Positions 280-27,798 of a DNA stretch of 64,000 nt are shown here, in pieces (the stretch's first letter is position 1; each line of letters starts with the position of its first letter). A program made the translations under genes and the position numbers. This stretch comes from an uncultured Planktomarina sp. (GTDB lineage: Bacteria > Pseudomonadota > Alphaproteobacteria > Rhodobacterales > Rhodobacteraceae). The notes under the pieces were generated by a model. That model had not been told where the DNA came from. It searched no databases and saw only the letters and a program-made list of their open reading frames with translations. The stretch lies in NCBI GenBank assembly GCA_905181815.1, contig CAJIZA010000001.1:186001-250000 (forward strand). Reading direction: 5' to 3'.

Positions 280-1260
<981 letters not shown>

Positions 1261-1358
1261 TTAATTTGAAAGATCGGTTACACCCAAATGCGTGGCGTGC
1301 CAAGGGAACATCGTCGTAAACTTGCAGTGTGGCGAGGGTTCGCTTTTGGGCGATCGGG

Positions 1359-1383
1359 CATTTTGCTGCAATGCGGCAAAATG
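1359..1383. promoter_or_regulatory. Inverted repeat in the mdh / mcl2 divergent promoter region
   Basis: CATTTTGC (1359-1366) and GCAAAATG (1376-1383) form perfect 8-base arms around a 9-base spacer, in the roughly 200-bp gap between divergent mdh and mcl2. The position suits a dimeric repressor or activator acting on one or both genes. The TTTGC/GCAAA arms loosely recall RamB-type sites known from acetate and EMC-pathway genes in other bacteria; that link is inference from memory. Confidence 0.4.
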
Positions 1384-1442
1384 CACTTGAATTTTAACTG
1401 CGATTGGTGGCAGTTATGCGCAACATTATTACGAGGCCAAAA

Positions 1443-3540: not shown

Positions 3541-3576
3541 GGGCATGGCAGAAACATGTTTTATGCTCACAGGGTT

Positions 3577-3593
3577 TATTCTAGATCACAAAA
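3577..3593. promoter_or_regulatory. Degenerate TGTGATCACA-like site before sdhC
   Basis: GATCACAAAA at 3584-3593 is identical to the right half of the palindromes in front of sucC (27763-27798) and the GntR gene. The left half is poor: the ten-base core matches TGTGATCACA at 7 of 10 positions. It lies about 125 bases before the sdhC start. It could be a weak operator linking sdh to the same regulator, or chance. Confidence 0.25.
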
Positions 3594-3717: not shown

Positions 3718-4101
3718 ATGGCTGACGTAAATCGCGGCAATCGCCCGCTATCTCCTCATCTGACGATCTACCGCCCTCAAATGACTTCGATTTCTTCGAT
3801 ATTTGTTCGGATCACAGGGAACGCGCTTTTGGCCGCGACGCTTTTATTGATCGCTTGGCTCTTGGCGGCATCGACCAGCATGGCGGCATTTGAATGGATA
3901 CAGCGCGTGATCACAAGCTGGTTTGGCGATTTGGTGTTTCTTCTGTCCCTCTGGGCGCTTTGGTACCACATGCTTGGCGGGTTGCGCCATTTGATTTGGG
4001 ACACTGGCCGCGGGTTGGAGTTGAAAACGGCCGAACGTATGGGCTGGATGATGATCATCGGGTCGCTTCTGCTCACAGCTTTTACAGTAATTTGGCTATG
4101 A
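3718..4101 (+). CDS. sdhC: Succinate dehydrogenase cytochrome b556 subunit
   Basis: This is the large membrane anchor of respiratory complex II, which helps bind heme b and ubiquinone. The 127-residue protein has the family start RPLSPHLTIYRPQMTS (about 9-24), with the quinone-site Ser and Arg in the following helix, and three hydrophobic helices at about 33-53, 67-88 and 105-126. The heme-ligand histidine lies in LWYHMLGGLRHLIWD (His84; His91 is also conserved). The start has GAGAAGG 8 bases upstream. First gene of sdhCDAB, 12 bases ahead of sdhD. Confidence 0.97.
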   Translation: MADVNRGNRPLSPHLTIYRPQMTSISSIFVRITGNALLAATLLLIAWLLAASTSMAAFEWIQRVITSWFGDLVFLLSLWALWYHMLGGLRHLIWDTGRGLELKTAERMGWMMIIGSLLLTAFTVIWL

Positions 4102-4113
4102 GGAGCGCGCAGC

Positions 4114-4485
4114 ATGGCTTTTTTGACTGACAGAAAACGTGCAAGCGGCCTTGGAGCCGCAAAAACAGGCACAGAACATTTTTGGGGTATGACCATTTCC
4201 TCTGCGGCGCTGCTTATCCTCGTGCCGCTTTTTGTCTTCACCGTAGGGCCCATGATTGGGCAAGACTATGAGGCGGTCACAGTCTATTTTGCCCGCCCGA
4301 TCCCCGCATTGGTTGCGCTTTTGACCTTTGTTGTCGCACTGGTGCATTTCAAAAACGGGGTGACCGTATTGATTGAGGACTATGTACATGGCCTTGCCCG
4401 CAAGGTCTGGATTATTACCATGACCTGTGTGTCATACGCGGCCATTGCTGCGGCTGTTTTCGCCATCGCGCGCCTCGCCCTTTAA
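4114..4485 (+). CDS. sdhD: Succinate dehydrogenase membrane anchor subunit
   Basis: The second membrane anchor of complex II, 123 residues with three predicted helices (about 26-46, 57-77 and 97-119). After a short polar N-terminus it has GTEHFWGMTISSAALLI, and the loop FKNGVTVLIEDYVHG holds the family Asp-Tyr pair that contributes to the quinone/heme pocket. It is preceded by GAGGAGCGCGC close to the ATG. It lies between sdhC and sdhA with short gaps, so it belongs to the same operon. SdhD proteins diverge quickly, and the call rests on both sequence pattern and position. Confidence 0.95.
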   Translation: MAFLTDRKRASGLGAAKTGTEHFWGMTISSAALLILVPLFVFTVGPMIGQDYEAVTVYFARPIPALVALLTFVVALVHFKNGVTVLIEDYVHGLARKVWIITMTCVSYAAIAAAVFAIARLAL

Positions 4486-4503
4486 GTTTCGGAGACCATA
4501 TCT

Positions 4504-6309
4504 ATGGCTGCTTATGAATATGAAACCCATGATTTTGATGTTGTGGTGGTTGGGGCGGGAGGCGCTGGATTGCGCGCCACACTCGGCATGGCCGAACAGG
4601 GATTGCGCACGGCCTGTGTCACTAAAGTTTTCCCGACCCGTTCCCATACGGTGGCCGCCCAGGGCGGCATTGCTGCAAGTCTGGGCAATATGGGGCCCGA
4701 CAGCTGGCAGTGGCATATGTATGACACAGTCAAAGGCTCGGATTGGCTAGGCGATACAGATGCCATGGAGTACCTGGCCAGAGAAGCACCCAAGGCGGTC
4801 TATGAGTTGGAACATTACGGCGTGCCTTTTTCGCGCACTGAGGCTGGAAAAATCTATCAACGCCCGTTTGGTGGCCATACAACAGAATTTGGTGAAGGCC
4901 CGCCGGTGCAGCGCACCTGTGCCGCTGCCGACCGGACAGGTCATGCGATTTTGCATACTCTTTACGGCCAGTCTTTGAAGAATAACGCGGAATTCTACAT
5001 CGAATATTTCGCCATTGACTTTGTGATGTCCGACGATGGTGTTTGCCAAGGGGTGGTGTGCTGGAAGCTTGACGATGGCACCATGCATGTGTTCAACGCC
5101 AAAACGGTCGTATTGGCTACAGGCGGCTATGGGCGTGCCTATTTTAGCGCCACTTCTGCCCATACCTGCACGGGAGATGGCGGCGGCATGGTCGCGCGGG
5201 CGGGTTTGCCGCTTCAAGATATGGAGTTCGTACAATTCCATCCGACCGGCATATATGGCTCGGGCTGTTTGATCACCGAGGGCGCGCGCGGCGAGGGCGG
5301 ATTTCTGAGCAATTCACAAGATGAGCGTTTCATGGAGCGCTATGCGCCGAACTATAAGGATTTGGCGCCGCGCGACTATGTCTCGCGCTGTATGACGATG
5401 GAAATTCGTGAAGGGCGTGGTGTGGGGCCGGAGGGGGATCACATTTACCTCAACCTCAGTCATCTGCAGCCTGAAGCGCTGGCGGAGCGCCTGCCGGGGA
5501 TTTCAGAATCTGCTAAAATTTTTGCGGGTGTTGACGTGAGCAAAGAGCCGATCCCTGTTCTTCCGACGGTGCACTATAACATGGGTGGCATTCCAACGAA
5601 TTTCTGGGGCGAAGTGCTGAATCCAACGACCAAAGATCCCAATGCCACTGTGCCCGGTCTTATGGCTGTAGGCGAGGCGGGCTGTGCCTCCGTACATGGG
5701 GCCAACCGTCTGGGCTCGAACTCGCTGATAGATTTGGTGGTCTTCGGCCGCGCTGCCGCGATCCGTGCCGGTAAAACCGTCGATGCGGCAGCGCCAGCAG
5801 CGGCGATGAACATGACTTCGGTGGATAAGGCCTTCGACCGCTTTGACGGGCTGCGCCACGCGGCGGGACATTTGCCCACCGCAGAGCTGCGGTTAGAAAT
5901 GCAAAAAACCATGCAGGCGGATGCGGCGGTGTTCCGGACCTCGAAAACCTTGGCAGAGGGGGTCGATAAAATGACTGCTGTGGCCGATAAAATGAGCGAT
6001 ATTAAAGTCACGGACCGCAGCCTAGTGTGGAATTCTGATCTTATGGAAACCCTGGAGCTCACCAATTTAATGCCCAACGCCATGGCGACCATTGTGGGCG
6101 CAGAAGCACGCAAGGAAAGCCGGGGGGCGCATGCTCATGAGGATTACACCGAGCGTGACGATGACAATTGGCGCGTGCACACCATCGCTCGGGTGGATGG
6201 ATCAAAGGTAGATTTGAGCCAACGGCCCGTGATCACCGAACGGCTGACTACCGAAGAAGAAGGTGGAATCTCCCTGGCGCAGATCGCACCTAAAGTAAGA
6301 ACTTTCTGA
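4504..6309 (+). CDS. sdhA: Succinate dehydrogenase flavoprotein subunit
   Basis: The catalytic subunit of complex II oxidises succinate to fumarate with covalently bound FAD. The 601-residue protein (standard length) has the FAD loop GAGGAGLRA at about 17-25, the flavin-linking histidine His48 in [12 protein letters not shown], the substrate-site motifs [11 protein letters not shown] and TEGARGEGG, the active-site region [15 protein letters not shown], and the C-terminal flavin contact [18 protein letters not shown] at 4504 follows GGAGACC. Its TGA shares a base with the ATG of the small exported gene downstream, so the two are tightly coupled. Confidence 0.99.
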
Positions 6310-6611
6310 TGCGGCGTTCGGGATATTGTGTGGCGGTGGCTGTTGCGTTGATCGGGGGGGCAGCTCTGGCTGAGCTTTCCCAATCTCAGCTTTCGGCTCT
6401 GACGGTTTTGTCCCCATTAGCGCAAGAACAGTTGGATCGAAAGAATGGGCAGGTGCTTGCGGAATGTATGGTCTTAGCCGCTGAGGTGGACGAAGTGTCC
6501 CGCATCGCGGCTTTCGCTGGCATGGCGCCCAGCCCGGTCATTATCGATATGGCCAATGAAATTATCCAGCGCCCGGCGGTGCTGAGCTGTTTGACTGAAA
6601 AGCTGTCTTAG
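6309..6611 (+). CDS. Small exported protein inside the sdh operon
   Basis: A 100-residue protein of unknown function between sdhA and sdhB. The N-terminus [20 protein letters not shown] looks like a signal peptide with a probable cleavage site after ALA-E at about residue 21. The mature part is about 80 residues, mostly helical in appearance, with two cysteines (in LAECMVLAAEV and VLSCLTEK) that could form a disulfide in the periplasm. It overlaps sdhA by one base (TGATG). I recall hypothetical genes at this place in other Rhodobacteraceae sdh operons. A role in complex II assembly or stability is pure inference. Confidence 0.75.
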   Translation: MRRSGYCVAVAVALIGGAALAELSQSQLSALTVLSPLAQEQLDRKNGQVLAECMVLAAEVDEVSRIAAFAGMAPSPVIIDMANEIIQRPAVLSCLTEKLS

Positions 6612-6708
6612 GGGATGCGGGTTTTGGCATATCACCCGATGAGACAGTTGATGTCGCTTGTTTATAGGCTGCATGGCGCTGTCTGCGTCTGCTCTGTGGA
6701 GAAATAAT

Positions 6709-7488
6709 ATGGTACAACTGACACTCCCGAAAAATTCCCGCATCACCCGCGGTAAGGTTTGGCCGAAACCGGAAGGGGTGAAAAACCTGCGGGTTTTCAA
6801 GATATATCGCTGGAACCCTGATGATGGCAAAACCCCGCAGGTGGATACCTATTTCGTAGATATGGACACATGTGGGCCTATGGTTTTGGATGCTTTGATC
6901 AAGATCAAGAGTGAAATTGATCCAACCTTGACCTTCCGCCGGTCCTGCCGGGAGGGAATTTGTGGCTCCTGTGCGATGAATGTTGACGGGGTGAATACGC
7001 TGGCTTGTATTTATGGCATGGATGAGATCAAGGGGGATGTGAAAATCTATCCGCTGCCGCATATGCCGGTTGTGAAGGATCTGATCCCAGATTTGACGCA
7101 TTTTTATGCCCAGCATGCCTCGATCATGCCGTGGCTTGAGACAAAAACCAACCGGCCTGCCAAAGAATGGTTGCAGTCGATTGAGGATCGCAAGAAGCTT
7201 GATGGGCTGTATGAATGTGTGATGTGCGCCTGCTGCTCGACCTCTTGCCCGTCCTATTGGTGGAATGGGGATCGCTATCTCGGTCCGGCGGCTTTGTTGC
7301 ACGCCTATCGATGGATTATTGACAGCCGCGATGAGGCCACGGGCGAGCGATTGGATAATCTGGAAGACCCGTTCAAACTCTACCGCTGCCACACGATTAT
7401 GAATTGCACCAAGACCTGCCCCAAAGGGCTCAATCCGGCCAAATCCATCGCCTCAATCAAAGAAATGATGGTCGAACGCCGGGTCTAG
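6709..7488 (+). CDS. sdhB: Succinate dehydrogenase iron-sulfur subunit
   Basis: It passes electrons from SdhA to quinone through three clusters. The 259-residue protein shows the 2Fe-2S ligands Cys80, 85, 88 and 100 ([16 protein letters not shown]), the 4Fe-4S ligands Cys170, 173, 176 and 180 ([16 protein letters not shown] region) and the 3Fe-4S ligands around Cys227, 233 and 237 ([15 protein letters not shown]). I start at the ATG at 6709, preceded by GTGGAG; the longer frame from 6658 adds an 17-residue tail not typical of SdhB. It lies 97 bases after the small exported gene and closes the sdh operon. Confidence 0.98.
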
Positions 7489-17381: not shown

Positions 17382-17705
17382 TTAGCTGTCGTCATCGTCC
17401 GAGGCTACATCTGTGATTTCATCGAGCGAAACCGTATCATCGTCGTCGTCATCAAGCACATCATCGCCCAAATCTACATCGACGTCATCATCGTCCAATA
17501 CCACGGCATCGGTATCTGTGTCGGCTTCATTCATCTTTGTTGTTTGTGCATCTTCCGCATCGGCCACCATTGTGCGACCTTTATTTGCGTCAAGCGTAAC
17601 AGTTTCGCCCGTATAGGGGCTGATGATCGGATCTTTATTCAAGTCGTAAAAACGCTTGCCTGTGGTGGGGCAGATACGTTTGGTACCCCATTGTTCGTTC
17701 GGCAT
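17382..17705 (-). CDS. TIGR02300 (FYDLN_acid) family protein
   Basis: A 107-residue protein of unknown function widespread in alphaproteobacteria. The N-terminal half carries the family signature KRICPTTGKRFYDLNKDP and SPYTGE; the single Cys and paired Thr-Gly turns suggest a half zinc-ribbon. The second half is almost entirely Asp-rich (LDDDDVDVDLGDD, VLDDDDDD), giving a strongly negative tail. It stands alone, divergent from the YgjP-like gene across about 90 bp, where both promoters must lie. Confidence 0.93.
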   Translation of the reverse strand: MPNEQWGTKRICPTTGKRFYDLNKDPIISPYTGETVTLDANKGRTMVADAEDAQTTKMNEADTDTDAVVLDDDDVDVDLGDDVLDDDDDDTVSLDEITDVASDDDDS

Positions 17706-17793
17706 GGGTTTTCCCCTCTCGCAATCGGTGACAATCTGTGCCGAGTGCCATACACAAGAGGCGGTGTCAAAGGTGAAATCTATTAATTCGTGG

Positions 17794-18513
17794 ATGTTGT
17801 GGATGAATCTGCCCTCAAATACTGCTTATCGGCAAATTACACTGCCCGGGCGGCCTGATATTACAGTGTTTCTGCGTCCGTCGCGTCGGGCAAGCCGCCT
17901 GTCACTTCGGATTTCGCGCCTCAAAGGGCAGGTGACACTTAGCCTGCCTTTGTCCTGCCCGATGGTGCAGGCGGAAAATTTTGTTTTGGAGAAAGAATCT
18001 TGGATCCGTAGGCATTTGGCCGATTTACCTCTGGCGGCCCAGGCTGGTTTTAACCGCCAGGTGCCCTTCGCGGGTCGGCAATTGACCATATGCCCCGGCG
18101 TGGGGCGTCAGGTTGAGCTGAAAGGGCATCGGTTGTTGGTGCCTGGCCGCGAGTCTTTGGTGCCTGCGCGCGTGAAAGCCTTTTTGAAGCTGCAAGCGCG
18201 CTTGGCGCTGCAGGAGGCTGTCGTTCACTATTCCAAACGTCTCGGGCGGCCTTTTGGGCGCCTGACACTGCGGGACACCACCTCGAGGTGGGGGTCTTGT
18301 TCGACACAGGGAAATTTAAACTTCTCTTGGCGCTTGATCATGGCACCACCTGAGGTATTGCGCTATGTGGCAGCCCATGAGGTGGCGCATTTGGAACAGA
18401 TGAATCACTCTGCCGCCTTTTGGACGCTTGTTGAACGCCTCTTTCCGGGCCATCAGGCGCAGCGTGACTGGCTTAAACGCCATGGGGAAGATCTGCATCG
18501 TTATCATTTCTAA
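17794..18513 (+). CDS. YgjP-like metallopeptidase-fold protein (DUF45/M48 type)
   Basis: A zinc-dependent hydrolase-fold protein of about 239 residues; the natural substrate in this family is not settled (peptidase-like or nucleotide pyrophosphatase roles have been proposed). The N-terminal half has SRRASRLSLRISRLKGQVTL, and the C-terminal half TSRWGSCSTQGNLNFSWRL followed by the zinc motif VAAHEVAHLEQMNHSAAFW: H-E-x-x-H plus a third His. The start is uncertain: ATGs at 17794 and 17803 both lack a strong ribosome-binding site, and the frame from 17656 overlaps the divergent neighbour. Its stop is about 80 bases before the GntR gene. Confidence 0.88.
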   Translation: MLWMNLPSNTAYRQITLPGRPDITVFLRPSRRASRLSLRISRLKGQVTLSLPLSCPMVQAENFVLEKESWIRRHLADLPLAAQAGFNRQVPFAGRQLTICPGVGRQVELKGHRLLVPGRESLVPARVKAFLKLQARLALQEAVVHYSKRLGRPFGRLTLRDTTSRWGSCSTQGNLNFSWRLIMAPPEVLRYVAAHEVAHLEQMNHSAAFWTLVERLFPGHQAQRDWLKRHGEDLHRYHF

Positions 18514-18570
18514 CCGGTACCTCTGAGGCGGCACGCGCTGGCTGTGGCCATTGGCGTTTGACAGGTGGTC

Positions 18571-18588
18571 CAAATGTGATCACAAATG
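18571..18588. promoter_or_regulatory. TGTGATCACA palindrome at the GntR gene start
   Basis: A perfect ten-base palindrome at 18575-18584, extended to AAATGTGATCACAAAT, ends 8 bases before the ATG at 18592. A TTGACA at 18558-18563 could be the -35 element, putting the palindrome between -35 and a poor -10 and the transcription start near the ATG. The same core occurs twice before sucC. GntR/FCD regulators bind such short palindromes, so autoregulation is a reasonable inference. Confidence 0.65.
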
Positions 18589-18591
18589 CAT

Positions 18592-19236
18592 ATGGCAGAG
18601 AAATTACAAGACAGTTATCTGGCCGCTCATGATCAGCTTTACCGCACTTTACGCATGCGGATTATGTACGGCGAAATGCGCCCGGGACAGGCGATTACCC
18701 TGCGGGGTGTGGCTAAGGAATTTGGGGTTTCAGTGACCCCGGTGCGCGAGGCGTTGAAGCGGCTGGCGGCAGAGGGCGCTCTTAGCATTTCCGTGAGTGG
18801 ACGGTTCCAAACCCCGGCTCTGACCAATGATCGAATTGAGGAGCTTGCAGCTCTGCGGGCATTGATTGAGGTGGAATTGGCCACACGGGCCTTGCCGCGG
18901 GCGCATATGGCGCTGGTTGAGCGGTTACAAACGATAAATAACGCCATTTCTGTTGCTGTGGCTAAGGCGGATGCTGTGACTTACATTCGTACCAATCTTG
19001 AGTTTCACCGCACGCTCTATTTGCGGGCACAGGCCCCTGCGATGCTGGCAACGGTCGAGACTGTGTGGTTACAAATGGGCCCGACTATGCGGGCGCTTTA
19101 TGGCCGGTTGCAACGCAAGGATCCGCCGATTCATCATCGCCTCATTCTGGCAGCCTTAAAAGCTGGCGATGAACCGGGCTTGCGGGTGGCCGTGCGGGCG
19201 GATGTCACCCAGGGGCTACGCATGTTGGCGCGTTAA
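18592..19236 (+). CDS. GntR-family (FCD) transcriptional regulator
   Basis: A 214-residue DNA-binding repressor or activator. The N-terminal winged helix (about 10-75) includes MRPGQAITLRGVAKEFGVS and VTPVREALKRLAAEGAL, the GntR recognition region; the FCD ligand domain (about 80-210) has EELAALRALIEVELA, then NLEFHRTLYL and HHRLILAALKAGD with metal-type histidines. The ATG at 18592 (or 18586) has no ribosome-binding site; a TTGACA 29 bases upstream and the operator between suggest a leaderless or very short-leader mRNA. It is convergent with lpd. The shared palindrome points to control of sucCDAB by this protein, possibly sensing a TCA-cycle acid; the ligand is unknown. Confidence 0.92.
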   Translation: MAEKLQDSYLAAHDQLYRTLRMRIMYGEMRPGQAITLRGVAKEFGVSVTPVREALKRLAAEGALSISVSGRFQTPALTNDRIEELAALRALIEVELATRALPRAHMALVERLQTINNAISVAVAKADAVTYIRTNLEFHRTLYLRAQAPAMLATVETVWLQMGPTMRALYGRLQRKDPPIHHRLILAALKAGDEPGLRVAVRADVTQGLRMLAR

Positions 19237-19297
19237 GGCTTGCACCCATTAGCGCAGGCATGAAAACAAAATAAATCGTGTGACGGCGACGGCATGC

Positions 19298-20686
19298 TCA
19301 GCTATGAATTGCCCCATTGCCACAGTCTAAAGCCGCCTCGCGCACCGCTTCGGAATAGGTGGGATGGGCGTGGCAAGTGCGGGCCAGATCTTCAGCGGCG
19401 GCGCCAAATTCCATCGCTACGCAGACCTCATGGATCAGATCTCCCGCCATTGGACCGATGATATGAGCGCCGAGAATGCGATCGGTCTCGGCGTCCGCTA
19501 GGATTTTCACAAAGCCATCGGAGGCGAAATTTGCTTTTGCTCGGCCATTCCCCATAAAGGAAAACTTGCCAGTCTTGTAAGCTCGGCCTGCCTCTTTCAA
19601 CTGCTCTTCGGTTTTGCCAACTGTGGCGACCTCTGGATGCGTGTAGATCACACCAGGGATTACGTCATAGTTCACATGTCCTGCTTGCCCTGCCAAAATT
19701 TCCGCCACGGCCATGCCTTCATCTTCGGCTTTATGGGCCAACATGGGGCCAGTGATGGCGTCGCCAATAGCGTAAACTCCGGGAACAGAGGTTGCATAAT
19801 GGGCGTCGGTTTGGATTTGACCGCGTGCAGTGAGGGTGACGCCAAGCGCGTCCAATCCGAGACCGTCGACATTGGGGCGTCGGCCCGTGGCGACAAGCAC
19901 CACATCGGCATCCACCTCATGCGTCGTGTCTTTTTTGCGTTTGATATAGGACACAGTGGCTTTGCCTTTTTTGACCACAACCGATTGCACTGCCGCGCCC
20001 ATGGTGAACTTAAGGCCTTGTTTTTTTAGAATTCTGAGGAAGGTTTTTTGAACCTCACCGTCCATACCGGGGGTGATGTCATCTAAAAATTCAATAACCT
20101 CAACCTCAGCGCCCAAGCGCGCGTAGACAGATCCCAATTCCAAACCAATGACTCCAGCGCCGATCACTACCATTTTGCTCGGAATTTTGTCCAATGCCAG
20201 GGCGCCTGTAGACGTCACGACGGTTTTTTCATCAATCTCAATTCCAGGTAGGCTGGAGGGTTTGGAGCCAGAAGCGATGATGATGTATTTTGCCTTATGG
20301 ATGTCATCGCCGATTTTGACCTGACCTGCCGTAGGAATGCTGCCCCAGCCTTTGAGCCATTCAATTTTGTTTTTCTTGAATAAAAACTCAATACCTTTGG
20401 TGTTGCCGTCAATCACCTCGGTTTTATAACCCTGCATCCTTGCCCAATCGACCTTGGGTTCATCGGCAATCAAACCCATTTTGGCAAAATTATGTTGCGC
20501 TTCATGCAATTGATGGCTGGCGTGCAGCAGGGCTTTGGAGGGAATACAGCCAACATTCAGGCAGGTGCCCCCCAGCGTATCACGCCCCTCGACACAGGCG
20601 GTTTTGAGACCCAGCTGCGCGCAACGAATAGCGCTGACATAGCCGCCGGGGCCGGAGCCGATCACAATTACATCATAAGAAGCCAT
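19298..20686 (-). CDS. lpd: Dihydrolipoyl dehydrogenase (E3), 2-oxoglutarate complex type
   Basis: It reoxidises dihydrolipoamide on SucB with NAD. The 462-residue flavoprotein has the FAD loop [15 protein letters not shown] (about 9-23), the redox pair in [13 protein letters not shown], an NAD loop [13 protein letters not shown], the second FAD contact [17 protein letters not shown], and the C-terminal His-Glu pair [10 protein letters not shown] that completes the active site of the partner subunit. AAAGGA precedes the start. It follows sucB after a 213-bp gap with only a weak CGGGC/GCCCG stem, so it is either the operon end or has its own promoter. A second, different E3 lies at 56584. Confidence 0.97.
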
Positions 20687-20899
20687 GAGGAAGGTCCTTT
20701 ATTTTCAGATCGGGCCCGGGAGCCCGTGGTTGAATTTCTATCCCAACCTCAGACTATGTGAAGCCAGAAAAAGATCATAACAGACAAATGTCCAAAATGA
20801 ACACTGTGGCCGTCGCAGGTGGCTCTTGATCTGCCGGCCTGTGAAGGGTCGCGCAGATGTGCCATCGGCCAGGCTTTTGGCCGTTGGGTCTCGAGCAGA

Positions 20900-22390
20900 T
20901 TAGAGATCCATCAACAGGCGACGTGGATCTTCTAAGGCTTCTTTTACGCGCACAAGGAATGTGACGGCACCTTTGCCATCCACGACCCGGTGATCATAGC
21001 TCAAAGCCAGATACATCATCGGGCGAATAACCACCTCACCGTTGATCGCCATCGGACGATCTTGGATCTTATGCATTCCTAATATGCCCGATTGCGGTGG
21101 GTTGAGGATAGGGGAAGACATCAGCGAACCGTAGACACCACCGTTGGAGATGGTGAAAGTGCCGCCCTGCATTTCAGCCATGGACAATTTGCCATCGCGC
21201 GCGCGCTCACCTTTTTCTGCAATGGCCTTTTCGATCTCGGCAAAGGACAAGGAATCTGCGTCGCGGATCACGGGAACCACCAATCCGGTTGGCGTGCCCG
21301 CGGCGATGCCCATGTGGACGAAATTTTTATACACGATATCTGTGCCATCAATTTCTGAGTTGACCTCTGGCACCTCGCGCAGCGCATGGCAGCAGGCGAC
21401 GGTGAAGAAAGACATAAAGCCCAATTTCACGCTATGTTTCTTTAAAAACAGTTCTTTGTATTCATTACGCAGGGCCATGACCTCTGTCATGTCAACCTCA
21501 TTATAAGTGGTCAACATGGCCGCAATGTTCTGGCTGTCCTTGAGACGCCGCGCGATGGTTTGGCGCAGGCGAGTCATCTTCACGCGCTCTTCGCGCGCTG
21601 CGTCATCTGCTGGAACAGCCGCACGAATGGGAGTGGCTGGCGGAATCGGAGTAGCCTGGGGCGCTGCTGCGGCTAGGGTTTTTTGAACGTCTTGTTTCAT
21701 CACACGATTATCTTTGCCTGTTGCGGTCACATCATTGCGGTTGAGGCCGGCTTCGGTCATGAGCTTTTTCGCTGAAGGGGCATCTTCGACATCTTGGGTT
21801 TTTGCAGTAGCGGCGGTGGAGACGCTAGCCTGTGCTGGGGCTGGATTTTTGGTGGTTTCTCCACCAATCACTGCCAATTGTCCGCCGACTTGCACAGTGC
21901 TTCCTTCGGCAGCAAGAATTTGCCCCAAAACACCAGCGGCCGGGGCGGGCACCTCTATACTCACCTTATCGGTTTCTAATTCACAGAGCATTTCGTCCTG
22001 TGCCACCGTATCGCCGAGCTTTTTATACCAGGTGGAGACGGTGGCCTCGGTGACGGATTCGCCTAAGACCGGCACCATCACTGCGATGGTTTGCGCCGCC
22101 TGCGCGAGTGCGCTTTTGGCGGGTGCTTCTACGGCAGGCGCAGAGGCTGCAGTTCCTTCGTTGATTTGTGCCAACAGCGCTTCGGTGCTGACTGTTGCGC
22201 CTTCGACGGCGACGATTTCCGCTAAAGTGCCAGCCACGGGGCTGGGCACTTCAACGGTGACCTTATCAGTCTCCAGCTCGCAGAGCATATCATCCACGGC
22301 AACGTGATCACCAGGTTTTTTGAACCACGTCGCGACGGTGGCCTCGGTCACAGATTCGCCCAAAGTGGGAACACGAACTTCGGTGGCCAT
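20900..22390 (-). CDS. sucB: 2-oxoglutarate dehydrogenase E2 (succinyltransferase), two lipoyl domains
   Basis: It transfers succinyl groups from lipoamide to CoA and forms the core of the complex. The 496-residue protein has two lipoyl domains, about 1-77 and 105-180, each with the lipoylated lysine in CELETDKV; many SucB proteins, such as that of E. coli, have only one. A linker rich in Ala/Pro and an E3/E1-binding domain ([19 protein letters not shown]) follow, then the catalytic domain ending in [13 protein letters not shown] with the catalytic His and Asp. It starts 4 bases after the sucA stop, so the two are coupled. Confidence 0.97.
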
Positions 22391-22394
22391 AATT

Positions 22395-25352
22395 TTATCC
22401 TTTCAACGTAAGCGCTTCATCGACGAGCGCGGCTTGTTGTGATTTATGTATAGAGGCAAGTCCCGTTGCGGGGGAGGCCGAGGTGGCGCGTCCGACATAG
22501 GCCGGACGGCTGTATTTGGCGCCAATGCGTGTAAGAACCCACTCGATATTTGGCTCAATAAAGGTCCATGCGCCCTGATTCTTCGGCTCTTCTTGGCACC
22601 AGACGGTTTCAGCATGTTTGAAGCGTTCCAATTCGTTGACCATTGAGATGGCGGGGAAAGGATAGAACTGCTCGATCCGCAGCAGATAGATATCATCAAT
22701 GCCTCGGGCGTCCCGTTCTTCGAGTAGATCGTAATAGACTTTGCCTGAACAGATCACCACGCGTTTGATCTTTTTATCCGCAACCAAATTTGTCTCGGAA
22801 TTACCATATTGTGCATCATCCCACAGAACTCGGTGAAAGCTGGACCCAGTGGTAAATTCTGCGCGCTTTGACACCGCCATCTTGTGACGCAACAGAGATT
22901 TTGGCGTCATTAGAACCAAAGGTTTACGGAAGGTGCGATGAACTTGTCGGCGCAAGATATGGAAGTAATTGGCTGGAGTGGTGCAGTTGGCGACAATCCA
23001 ATTGTCATGGCCGCACATTTGCAAAAAGCGCTCAAGGCGGGCGGAGCTATGCTCTGGACCTTGCCCTTCAAACCCGTGAGGCAGCAGCATCGTCAGACCT
23101 GACATGCGTAGCCATTTGCTTTCCCCGCTGGAGATGAATTGATCAAACATGATCTGCGCGCCATTGGCAAAATCGCCAAATTGAGCTTCCCACATGACCA
23201 ACGCATTGGGCTCGGCCAAGCTGTAGCCATATTCAAAGCCCAAGACTGCATATTCGGAGAGCATTGAATCGATGACCTCATACTGGCCCTGTCCTTCACG
23301 GATATTGTTGAGCGGGTAATAGCGCTCCTCGGTATCCTGATTGATCAGCCCAGAGTGGCGGTGGCTAAAAGTGCCGCGTGTGCTATCTTGTCCGGACAGG
23401 CGGACCGAATGGGCCTCTGTGAGCAAAGAGCCAAAGGCCAAAGCCTCGCCTGTGGCCCAATCAATCCCTTCGCCGCGGATCAGCGCTGTGGATTTGGCAT
23501 CCAACATGCGCTGTACGGTTTTGTGGATTGGAAAGCCCTCTGGCACTTGACAGAGGGTTTGTGCCACCTCGTCAAAGGTCTCTTCGGCGACCGCAGTGGC
23601 GCCGCGTTGGTATTCTTCACCGTGGCGATTCATTTTCGACCAGCGCCCATCCAGCCAATCGGCCTTATTGGGCTTATAGTCTTTACCGGCTTCAAATTCA
23701 GCATTCAGAAGTGATTGAAAGCTGGCTTTCATATCTTCGATTTCACCCTCTGGGATCAGGCCATCACGCACCAGGCGCTCTGTGTAGAGGGTGAGGGTAG
23801 TTTTTTGCATTTTTATCTTTTTGTACATCAGCGGATTGGTAAACATCGGCTCATCGCCTTCGTTATGACCAAAGCGGCGATAGCAGATTATATCGACAAC
23901 CACGTCTTTTTTGAACTTTTGACGGAATTCCGTGGCGACGCGGGCGGCATGGACCACGGCTTCTGGATCATCGCCGTTCACGTGGAAAATAGGTGCTTCT
24001 ACCATCAAAGCAATATCGGTGGGATAGGGGGAGGAGCGGCTGAAATGCGGCGCGGTGGTGAACCCGATTTGGTTGTTCACCACTATGTGCATGGTGCCGC
24101 CGGTTTTATGCCCTTTCAGGCCCGATAGGCCAAACCCTTCGGCCACAACACCCTGACCGGCAAAGGCGGCATCCCCATGCAGCAGGATGGGCAGAACGCT
24201 TGTGCGCTCTGTGTCGTTATTTTGATCTTGTTTGGCGCGCGCTTTTCCTAAAACGACTGGGTTGACTGCCTCCAGGTGGCTTGGGTTGGCGGTGAGCGAC
24301 AAATGCACGGAATTACCATCAAATTCACGATCAGAGGAGGCGCCGAGGTGGTATTTCACATCGCCCGATCCATCCACATCCTCTGGCTTGAACGAGCCGC
24401 CCTGGAATTCGTTAAAGATCGCGCGGTAGGGTTTGGCCATCACATTGGCCAGCACCGACAGACGGCCCCGGTGGGGCATGCCGATGATGATGTCTTTTAC
24501 GCCCAGGGCGCCACCACGTTTGACGATTTGCTCCATCGCTGGAATGAGGCTTTCGCCGCCATCAAGCCCAAAGCGTTTAGTGCCCATGTATTTGACATGG
24601 AGGAATTTTTCGAAGCCTTCCGCCTCAACCAATTTGTTGAGAATGGCCTTGCGGCCCTCGCGGGTGAAGCTGATTTCTTTGCCGTAACCTTCAATCCGCT
24701 CTTTTAGCCAAGATGATTCTTTGGGATCGGAAATATGCATGTATTGCAGGGCGAAAGTGCCACAATAGGTGCGGCGAACAATTTCCAAAATCTCACGCAT
24801 AGAGGCAAATTGCAGCCCCAAAACATTATCGAGAAAAATTGGCCGGTCCATATCGGCCTCTGTGAAGCCATAGCTGGCTGGATCCAATTCGGGGCGCGGA
24901 TCATCCTCGTGCATACCCAAAGGATCCAGATCCGCCGCCAGGTGGCCGCGAATACGGTAGGCACGGATCAGCATCAAGGCGCGCAGACCGTCGAGCACTG
25001 CGCGTTTGAGTTGATCCTCATTTAGTGACACGCCAGTTTCAGCGGCACGATTGCTGATCTTCTTGCCCGCACCGCGCGCCTCGGCCGCAGCTGGGTATTC
25101 GCCGGTAAAGGCAGATGTGAGATCATCCATCGGCATGGGTGGCCAATCGCTGCGTGCCCAAGAGGGGCCTGAAGCTTTGGCGCGCACATCCTGGTCCTCA
25201 TCGCCCATGGCTGCAAAGAAATCAGCCCATTGCGCGTCAACTGACACAGGGTCGGCGCTGTAACGGGCGTGCATTTGCTCTAGATATTCCGCGTTATGGC
25301 CTTGCATAAAGCTTGAGGCATGGAATTGATCGTTTGCAGACTGATTGGTCAT
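22395..25352 (-). CDS. sucA: 2-oxoglutarate dehydrogenase E1
   Basis: The thiamine-diphosphate subunit that decarboxylates 2-oxoglutarate and transfers the succinyl group to SucB. The 985-residue protein begins with the SucA N-terminal segment ([18 protein letters not shown], which helps bind E2), then [18 protein letters not shown], the ThDP motif region [15 protein letters not shown] through NNQIGFTT, and the transketolase-like C-terminal half with [15 protein letters not shown] and [15 protein letters not shown]. It is third in sucC-sucD-sucA-sucB, after a 155-bp gap from sucD, where an internal promoter or processing site could lie. Confidence 0.98.
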
Positions 25353-25508
25353 CGGATGACACCTCTATAAGGAACAAAAAGCGGGTTTGAACGAATAACG
25401 GCAAGGAAACTCCCAGGAATGACCTTGCCGCATTGAGTTAGCTCAAGCGCAGGGTGTGATCGTCTATCATCCAATTTGAATTTAAGCGTCATATCTGCTG
25501 CCCCCAAT

Positions 25509-26393
25509 TTACGCGTCGATCGCAGCCAAAACAGCTTCGCCAAGGCTGGCGGGGCTCTCTGCAACTACAATTCCTGCCATTCTCATGGCTTCGATCTTAT
25601 CTTCTGCGCCGCCCTTGCCGCCGGCGACAATCGCGCCCGCGTGGCCCATTCTGCGGCCTTCGGGAGCTGTACGGCCAGCAATGAAACCCGCCACGGGTTT
25701 CCAGCGGCCTTTTTTCTTTTCATCGGCCAAGAATTGCGCGGCCTCCTCTTCAGCTGAGCCGCCAATTTCGCCGATCATGATGATGGATTGGGTTTCGTCA
25801 TCTGCGAGGAACCACTCGAGCACGTCGATATGTTCTGTGCCTTTGATTGGATCGCCGCCAATGCCGACGCAGGTGGATTGGCCCAATCCCACATCCGTGG
25901 TTTGCTTTACGGCTTCATAGGTCAAAGTGCCCGAGCGGGAGACTACGCCGACAGATCCGCGGCGGTGAATATGGCCTGGCATAATGCCGATTTTGCAGGC
26001 GTCGGGAGTGATCACCCCAGGGCAGTTGGGCCCGATTAACCGGCTTGAGGAGCTTTCAAGCGCCCGCTTTACGCGCATCATGTCCAAGACGGGAATGCCT
26101 TCGGTAATGCAGACGATGACTTCCATCTGTGCGTCAATCGCTTCTAGAATGGAGTCCGCCGCAAAGGGGGGCGGGACGTAGATAACAGAGGCATTGGCCT
26201 CAGTGACAGATTTAGCCTCATGCACAGAGTTGAAAACCGGCAGATTTAAATGGGTTTGCCCCCCCTTGCCAGGGGTGACTCCCCCAACCATTTTCGTGCT
26301 ATAAGCGATGGCTTGCTCCGAGTGAAATGTGCCCTGACTGCCGGTGAATCCCTGGCAAATGACTTTGGTGTTTTCGTCAATAAGTACGGCCAT
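25509..26393 (-). CDS. sucD: Succinyl-CoA synthetase alpha subunit
   Basis: It carries the phosphorylated histidine and the CoA site of the enzyme that makes ATP or GTP from succinyl-CoA. The 294-residue protein has the Rossmann CoA-binding start ([18 protein letters not shown]), [28 protein letters not shown], the signature [11 protein letters not shown], and the active-site His in [11 protein letters not shown]. It starts 79 bases after sucC. Length and motifs are standard. Confidence 0.98.
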
Positions 26394-26472
26394 TCGGCGC
26401 TCCTCGTTCGTATGTTGGCAGTGGCACCTTGGGCCGGCTGCAAAATTCTAATTCAGCGGTCGTGGGGCCGCG

Positions 26473-27669
26473 TTACAGCGCCTTCACAGCAGCAACGATT
26501 TTCTCGGCTCCATCGCGGAGGTTGTCGGCTGCGATCACATTCAGCCCACTTTCGGTGATGATCCGCTTGCCTTCATCGACATTGGTGCCTTCCAAACGAA
26601 CGACCAAAGGCACTGTAAGCCCCACTTCTTTCACCGCAGAGACCACCCCATCAGCAATCACGTCACAGCGCATGATCCCGCCAAAGATATTGACCAAAAT
26701 ACCTTTGACTTGCGGATCAGATGTGATGATCTTGAAGGCTTCTGTCACTTTTTCCTTTGTGGCGCCGCCGCCAACATCCAGGAAGTTCGCTGGTTCAGCG
26801 CCATAGAGTTTGATAATGTCCATCGTGGCCATGGCCAGACCCGCACCGTTGACCATGCAGCCGATTTCTCCATCCAAGGCGATGTAGTTCAGGTCATATT
26901 TCGACGCTTCCAGTTCACGGGCGTCCTCCTCGGTGGTGTCGCGCAGCTCAGCGATATCTGTGTGGCGGTACACCGCATTGCCATCGAAGCCAATTTTAGC
27001 ATCTAAGACTTTCAAATCCCCACCATCAGTGATGATCAAAGGATTGATTTCCAACATCTCCATGTCTTTTTCAACAAAAGCTATGTAGAGCTGGCCCATT
27101 AATTTAACACATTGTTTTATTTGTGCGCCTTTGAGGCCAAGGGAAAAGGCAATGCGGCGGCCATGAAAGCCTTGATATCCAGTGGCTGGATCTACGGAGA
27201 AGGAGAGAATTTTTTCCGGTGTAGCCTCTGCCACCTTTTCAATGTCCATTCCACCTTCGGTAGAGGCCACAAAGGAAATGCGGCTTGTTTGACGGTCAAC
27301 TAGGATCGCAAGATAAAATTCTTTTTCAATACTGGAGCCATCTTCAATGTAAATTCGGTTGACCAATTTTCCAGCAGGGCCAGTTTGCTTGGTCACAAGT
27401 GTACGGCCCAGCATTGCTTTGGCTTCTTTTTCGGCTTCATCGACCGACCGCGCAAGGCGCACACCACCGGCAGTGCCGGCGTCGGCTTCGATAAAGCTGC
27501 CTTTTCCGCGTCCACCGGCGTGGATTTGAGCTTTCACAACCCACAAGGGACCATCCATTTCGGACGCTGCCGCTTTGGCGGCATCGGCGCTGAGTACAAT
27601 GCGGCCGTCGCTGACGGGTGCGCCGTAGCTGCGCAAAAGGGCTTTGGCTTGATATTCATGAATATTCAT
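26473..27669 (-). CDS. sucC: Succinyl-CoA synthetase beta subunit
   Basis: The nucleotide-binding subunit of succinyl-CoA synthetase, 398 residues. It opens [20 protein letters not shown] (ATP-grasp N-terminus), has [16 protein letters not shown] at about 44-59, the Mg-binding [29 protein letters not shown], and the C-terminal subunit-interface segment [18 protein letters not shown] with the conserved GGI-M-RC. First gene of sucCDAB(-lpd). Its 185-bp upstream region holds two TGTGATCACA palindromes, which makes it the best candidate target of the GntR/FCD regulator in the window. Confidence 0.98.
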
Positions 27670-27762
27670 AGAACTGGTCCTGCAATTTATTTTTCATCGC
27701 ATCTAAAACATATAAATTGTGGCGATATAGTAAATTTTTTCAGAAAATCCGTTTTTCGTACA

Positions 27763-27798
27763 TTTGTGATCACAGAAAAAAATTTTGTGATCACAAAA
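27763..27798. promoter_or_regulatory. Two TGTGATCACA operators upstream of sucC
   Basis: TTTGTGATCACAGA (27763-27776) and TTTTGTGATCACAAAA (27783-27798) lie 94-129 bases before the sucC start. Their centres are 21 bp apart, two helical turns, so two dimers would bind the same DNA face. The second site is a perfect 16-base palindrome. The ten-base core is the same as at the GntR gene start (18575-18584). Confidence 0.75.

Follow-up and report, generated by a model that had tools for sequence, protein, structure and literature searches.

The question raised by this locus is which protein reads a palindrome, TGTGATCACA, that stands upstream of both sucC and a nearby gene for a GntR-type regulator with an FCD domain, and with what effect on transcription. 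The DNA concerned is a 64,000-nucleotide stretch from an uncultured Planktomarina sp. (contig CAJIZA010000001.1, positions 186,001 to 250,000), referred to here as the window. A preliminary description of it, noting that FCD-type GntR proteins often regulate their own genes, had proposed that this one controls oxidative tricarboxylic acid (TCA) flux through sucCDAB and perhaps lpd, and had noted no established TCA repressor of this kind in roseobacters. On the comparative data presented below, we consider it likely, with a probability of roughly 0.85, that the protein encoded at 18592-19236 is an orthologue of AkgR and that the 8-mer GTGATCAC is its operator, through which it would activate the suc operon and repress its own gene.

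Occurrence of the palindrome in the window

Exactly three copies of TGTGATCACA are present in the window, at the three positions first described (18575-18584, 27765-27774 and 27786-27795), whereas the zero-order expectation for the exact 10-mer is ∼0.05 per window. The window contains 72 palindromic 10-mers, and no other reaches three copies or has two of them within 40 bp of each other. The two copies upstream of sucC are indeed 21 bp apart. Measured from the sucC ATG (27669, minus strand), their near edges lie 96 and 117 bp upstream. Given that 21 bp corresponds to two turns of DNA, both sites would face the same side of the helix.

Coincidence within the window could also bring three palindromes together, and one observation is compatible with it: a search that allowed one mismatch returned five matches, a number reached by 7 of 100 shuffled sequences. 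This search is weak, and the weight therefore falls on the exact matches and the comparative data. Given that the sites are conserved at the same promoters over about 50 genera, we regard the probability of a chance origin as negligible.

Association of the operator with the regulator across the family

The distribution of the operator was assessed in a family-wide sample of 61 genomes, in which each genus is represented once except that of the window, which has two. Regulators of the window type (47-100% identical, hereafter class A) are carried by 51 of these genomes and not by the other 10. The region upstream of sucC could be read in 59 genomes, G037 (no sucC match) and G021 (a 54% match only) being dropped. 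Here, 50/50 class A genomes and 1/9 of the others have GTGATCAC no more than 400 bp upstream of sucC (Fisher p = 4e-9, uncorrected for kinship). Thus, the co-occurrence of motif and regulator that had been anticipated is observed, and a search for genomes that keep the regulator but lack the motif at sucC returned none. When all 256 palindromic 8-mers were compared, the next commonest upstream of sucC was present in 6/59 genomes. The spacing is likewise conserved: of 51 promoters with the site (at most one mismatch), 48 have the two copies 21 bp apart and the other 3 have them 20 bp apart. Both 8-mers are exact at sucC in 50/59 genomes.

At the scale of whole genomes, an exact pair was detected in 51/61 genomes, comprising 50/51 with class A and 1/10 without; the sole class A genome lacking one, G040, has an imperfect pair. 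A backward-pattern control gave no matches. This control contains CTAG, a tetranucleotide that is rare in many bacteria, and it is therefore not relied on alone, the comparison of 256 palindromes being the better control. Two exact pairs were present in 37/61 genomes, one in ten, and three or four in four. Where two-pair genomes were checked, one pair lies at sucC and the other at sdhC. The regulon looks small and clean, with two exact pairs per genome the most frequent state, and the operator tracks the regulator almost without exception.

Additional draws were made at wider taxonomic range. All 101 genomes drawn at the level of the order contained the pair, this draw consisting throughout of highly complete genomes of the same family. 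A class-wide draw yielded the pair in 8/115 genomes, two from this family and six from outside it, none of the six at 21-bp spacing; one genome of this draw, G244, gave 20 backward-control matches per strand. A protein relative at E 1e-30 was also found in 8/115 genomes, and two of the six from outside the family, G213 and G282, carry the pair as well. In G282 (contig C207, L356:695-1565), a GTGATCAC pair with 24-bp spacing comes after the gene for a GntR protein 36% identical to that of the window and directly precedes a gene resembling aldehyde dehydrogenase on inspection by eye. The operator may be older than its role in the TCA cycle.

An alternative explanation is that some other factor reads the palindrome, for example a CRP-like protein, a LacI-type regulator (L104:6344-7552) or a second group of FCD paralogues (∼33-41% identical, class B). 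Class B paralogues occur widely in the family, and the 8-mer is present in 14/20 class B loci, but in these 14 it falls inside open reading frames (ORFs) of at least 150 residues, and in none of the 20 is it within 400 bp upstream of the class B gene. The 10-mer is absent from all 20 loci, and the genome of the window has no class B match at E 1e-20. Similarly, TGTGA and TCACA resemble CRP half-sites, but six bases separate the half-sites of CRP. Given also that the operator tracks the presence of class A and sits at the promoter of class A itself, we regard a different reader as very improbable. Class B was likewise rejected as the true AkgR on the grounds of the same 10-mer and 8-mer counts. 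In the 20 class B loci (L142-L161), the gene was not beside an sdh or suc operon, two loci having an E2-like match only, at 32-44% identity.

Identification of the regulator as a probable AkgR orthologue

Matches above the cut-off to PF00392 (GntR, 3.9e-16) and PF07729 (FCD, 3e-16) place the predicted window protein in the FCD (FadR) subfamily of the GntR family. The FCD domain has an Asp-His-His-His metal site, which membership of the Pfam family does not require. In an alignment made by eye, N137, H141, H184 and D206 fall at the putative metal-site positions, and these residues are identical in 126/126 class A and 20/20 class B sequences. By contrast, R40 is present in 126/126 class A sequences, whereas 17/20 class B sequences have Q at this position, a difference that may relate to different operators. 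The closest solved structure by sequence is that of Escherichia coli McbR (PDB 4p9f, E 2.2e-23), a protein also of the FCD type. McbR acts on targets other than those of AkgR.

The class A orthologue of genome G051 is 70% identical to the window protein over 214 residues, and this genome carries pairs at sucC and sdhC. Its gene order is sucC-mdh-mcl-mch-sdhCDAB-gntR, with the class A gene adjoining sdhB, and a stretch of another (plasmid) contig matches Cereibacter sphaeroides plasmids, those of strain 2.4.1 among them, at 100% identity. In PMC4344238, the suc genes are numbered RSP_0967-0962 and the sdh genes RSP_0974-6, and the predicted targets of a GntR regulator, RSP_0981, are sucCD, sdh and the 2-oxoglutarate dehydrogenase genes. 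Given that this gene order matches that of G051, the window protein is considered an orthologue of AkgR; the label RSP_0981 is assigned to the G051 gene by gene order from that paper. AkgR (RSP_0981) of Rhodobacter sphaeroides has been termed a transcriptional activator, and GTGATCAC is among its sites (PMC6365646).

The expectation of a TCA repressor not described before is therefore corrected, a regulator of this type having already been described. The system is most likely of the known AkgR type, with the protein an activator at suc. Of the proposed control of oxidative TCA flux, the part that holds by comparison is that the suc operon is a predicted target, whereas the repressor sense does not agree with the description of the AkgR orthologue as an activator. 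A literature search linking GTGATCAC with GntR proteins matched PMC6365646 alone, and no further paper on this regulator appeared among the papers listed.

The window resembles the R. sphaeroides system in its GntR/FCD protein, a YgjP-like neighbour, the operator pair at sucC and the GTGATCAC operator itself. It differs in that the regulator gene lies beside lpd-sucBADC rather than beside sdhB, in that an operator is present at the regulator gene in the window but absent from the R. sphaeroides-type locus (L162), and in that the sdhC pair, intact in the R. sphaeroides-type locus, is degenerate in the window. Two further regulators can be distinguished from it. CceR differs from AkgR in protein family, ligand and motif. 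This LacI-family protein is reported to control TCA genes in R. sphaeroides (PMC11323563). PS417_07240, the GntR-like regulator of a deoxyribonate cluster in Pseudomonas simiae, is proposed to use GTGATCAC upstream of its own cluster, but it is 32% identical to AkgR and serves another pathway (PMC6365646).

The regulator's own promoter

Two in-frame ATGs are present at the start of the regulator gene, at 18586 (one base after the motif) and at 18592 (seven bases between). The comparative data favour 18592, which is likely to be the start and which fits the motif having been placed eight bases before the ATG. GTGATCAC is present at the regulator gene in 109/125 orthologue loci, comprising 80/80 of the named loci nearest to that of the window and 29/45 of a genus-spread set; a further locus left out of the 125, L179 (47% identical), also has a site.

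TTGAC begins 17-20 bp upstream of GTGATCAC in 106/109 of these loci (5 + 74 + 20 + 7 in the position histogram). A shuffle control for TTGAC gave a mean of 0.56 and a maximum of 3, values to be set against the 27/109 obtained with the same one-base-shorter slice and not against the 106. Part of the conservation of TTGAC may come from the upstream gene, whose end it seems to overlap in some genomes, though not in the window. With TTGAC at this distance as the -35 element, the -10 element would fall on the operator, an arrangement that suggests autorepression. The first in-frame ATG downstream of the operator lies at +16 to +18 from the operator start in 99/109 loci, and the promoter is probably leaderless and repressed by the product of its own gene. 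Two points must be set against this interpretation: the ATG search covered only the region downstream of the operator, and, although a Shine-Dalgarno-like motif precedes the ATG in 0/109 loci, the operator itself fills that place, so that its absence is not independent evidence.

Operator pairs at sdhC and the direction of control

The region upstream of sdhC was read in a subset of the family sample (30/61 genomes taken, of which 28 gave sdhA, 27 besides the window's own). A pair with at most one mismatch per site was found in 24 of the 27, at a spacing of 21 bp in 23 and 20 bp in one, with no pair in the remaining three. In 20/26 promoters, a two-block fit, made without a shuffled control, put a -35-like element at an offset of 65-68 bp from where the proximal 8-mer begins. 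On this fit, the estimated transcription start is ∼96 bp downstream of the proximal site, which is itself upstream of the -35 element. The sdhC pair would thus be some way upstream of the core promoter, a geometry expected for an activator, and from it we infer the same geometry at suc.

The opposite sense of control at suc would require the AkgR orthologue to act as a repressor there, with the pair forming a repressor loop or blocking an unrecognised upstream promoter. Many FCD proteins act as repressors, and an overlap of the sites with the suc core promoter, which was not resolved, would be possible. Repression at suc is nevertheless unlikely, given that the sdhC pair is upstream of the best -35 (20/26 fits, offset 65-68) and that AkgR is described as an activator (PMC6365646). 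Repression by an AkgR-type regulator mainly at its own promoter is plausible.

Taken with the preferred reading of the protein as an activator at suc, these data can be accommodated by the following scheme. Upstream of the suc promoter, two adjacent dimers would occupy the same face of the DNA and activate transcription. By contrast, the regulator gene would have one dimer, which would cover the -10 region of the probably leaderless promoter and block RNA polymerase, and the regulator would in this way limit its own level. Only tentatively, and with more doubt than belief, do we extend this to a single FCD regulator with a TCA regulon of two operons, in which helically phased pairs activate suc and sdh from upstream, a single -10 site represses the regulator gene, and the sdh branch is weakening in Planktomarina. 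If this scheme is correct, opposite outputs would be set by operator architecture alone, and an ocean bacterium with a small genome would be uncoupling succinate dehydrogenase from the oxidation of 2-oxoglutarate. The comparison itself takes AkgR beyond the single laboratory species in which it was described and shows a pattern that spans the family. What it adds is the paired architecture across that range, a self-operator at a promoter that is probably leaderless, and the apparent weakening of the sdh branch.

Several observations weigh against the scheme. The suc core promoter was not resolved by an expectation-maximization fit, its positions being scattered in the real sequences and likewise in the shuffled control. 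The regulator gene lacks an operator in 16/125 orthologue loci, all in the genus-spread set of 45 and with L162 among them, so that autoregulation is not universal. Genome G019 has the suc pair with no regulator detected (a draft of 210 contigs, 91% complete). Finally, 9/17 genomes of the window's genus keep one good site at sdhC, and control of sdh need not be lost.

Decay of the sdhC sites in Planktomarina

In the window, both sites upstream of sdhC are degenerate (distal TATGCTCACA, proximal CTAGATCACA; Table 1). Their 19-bp spacing is also observed in L302-L304. To place this in the genus, 20 genomes were searched; sdhA was recovered from 18 of them, and the sequence upstream of sdhC could be read in 17 (with the start extrapolated in L307). 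Counting a site as kept when the 8-mer was intact or had at most one mismatch, a pair (19-20 bp) is retained in four, one site in nine and none in four, the window included. Given that L302 and L303, whose sdhA is 99% identical, still carry the pair, decay in the window is recent.

Sites at the other two promoters are retained. At suc, both sites have at most one mismatch in 8/8 Planktomarina-like loci with a readable sucC promoter (L020 ends too early to be read), and the 10-mer is present at the regulator gene in 12/13 such loci (L018-L029 and L065), L065 having the 8-mer. This pattern suggests that the sdh branch has weakened in the Planktomarina lineage while the regulator was not lost. 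The link that this regulator makes between sdh and suc is probably looser there.

Gene content of the window and further candidate targets

The features are collected in Table 1. The genes lpd-sucB-sucA-sucD-sucC lie on the strand opposite to the GntR/FCD gene, and the window also holds two genes of the coenzyme A (CoA)-lyase and hydratase type. By regulator protein, the nearest named genomes include a Rhodobacteraceae isolate, at 99% identity, together with assemblies of Planktomarina, at up to 96%.

Table 1. Coordinates of predicted genes and candidate operators in the window
Feature	Coordinates	Strand	Remarks
Distal operator of sucC pair	27786..27795	.	Exact match; spacing kept in relatives
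Proximal operator of sucC pair	27765..27774	.	Exact match; 8-mer kept at sucC
Single operator at regulator's own promoter	18575..18584	.	Exact match to the 10-mer
TTGACA, predicted -35 of regulator gene	18558..18563	+	Expected -10 falls on operator
AkgR-type GntR/FCD regulator	18592..19236	+	Pfam GntR 3.9e-16, FCD 3e-16; ORF as called begins 18586
Decayed distal sdhC operator	3562..3571	.	2 mismatches; counterparts with 0 or 1 mismatch in L302, L303, L305
Decayed proximal sdhC operator	3581..3590	.	3 mismatches; 19 bp from distal site
sucC, succinyl-CoA ligase beta subunit	26473..27669	-	Pfam ATP-grasp_2, Ligase_CoA
sucD	25509..26393	-	Pfam CoA_binding, Ligase_CoA
sucA, 2-oxoglutarate dehydrogenase E1	22395..25352	-	Pfam E1_dh, OxoGdeHyase_C
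sucB, E2 component	20900..22390	-	Pfam 2-oxoacid_dh, Biotin_lipoyl
lpd, dihydrolipoyl dehydrogenase	19298..20686	-	Pfam Pyr_redox_2, Pyr_redox_dim
sdhCDAB	3718..7488	+	sdhC 3718-4101, sdhD 4114-4485, sdhA 4504-6309, sdhB 6658-7488 (start uncertain); Sdh_cyt matches, ORF starts, Pfam
mdh	280-1257	-	
YgjP-like gene	17656-18513		

The suggestion that lpd is a target does not hold for the window, where lpd has no site of its own (best candidate, three mismatches); a site with at most one mismatch was found in 3/26 loci. Two of the three are exact copies of TGTGATCACA, 129-148 bp upstream of lpd at L064:12549 and L166:11992, so that some genera may have lpd under direct control.

With up to two mismatches, TTGTGATCACAA gave 171 matches per strand in the genome of the window (G000), compared with 31 for the backward control. 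The search for further targets covered sites that match TTGTGATCACAA with 0-1 mismatch, the site at G000:C7:18741 being left out. Besides the sites at suc, at the regulator gene and at C3:349697, this gave 13 loci, of which 12 overlap ORFs of at least 90 residues (L007 at the edge of the ORF only) and one, L014, does not. The L014 site, CTGTGATCACAA (1501-1512; G000:C4:53183), is outside predicted ORFs and 66 bp upstream of an ORF of 153 residues (977-1435, minus strand), a possible single-site target.

A second exact pair in the genome of the window (G000:C3:349699-349734; L002:1503-1538), with its sites 28 bp apart, lies in a gene-poor stretch ∼2.4 kb before atpB (L104:12170). No clear target was found for this pair, and there was no Rfam match in the surrounding 2.5 kb. 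G045, a genome of the same genus, has one exact pair only, at suc.

Two matches within coding sequence were also noted in the window. TGTGATCGCA, at 26530-26539 on the coding strand of sucC, is inside that gene ∼146 bp upstream of sucD and recurs in L020 and L028; it probably reflects coding conservation. CGTGATCACA, at 3906-3915 within the sdhC coding sequence, is probably due to chance.

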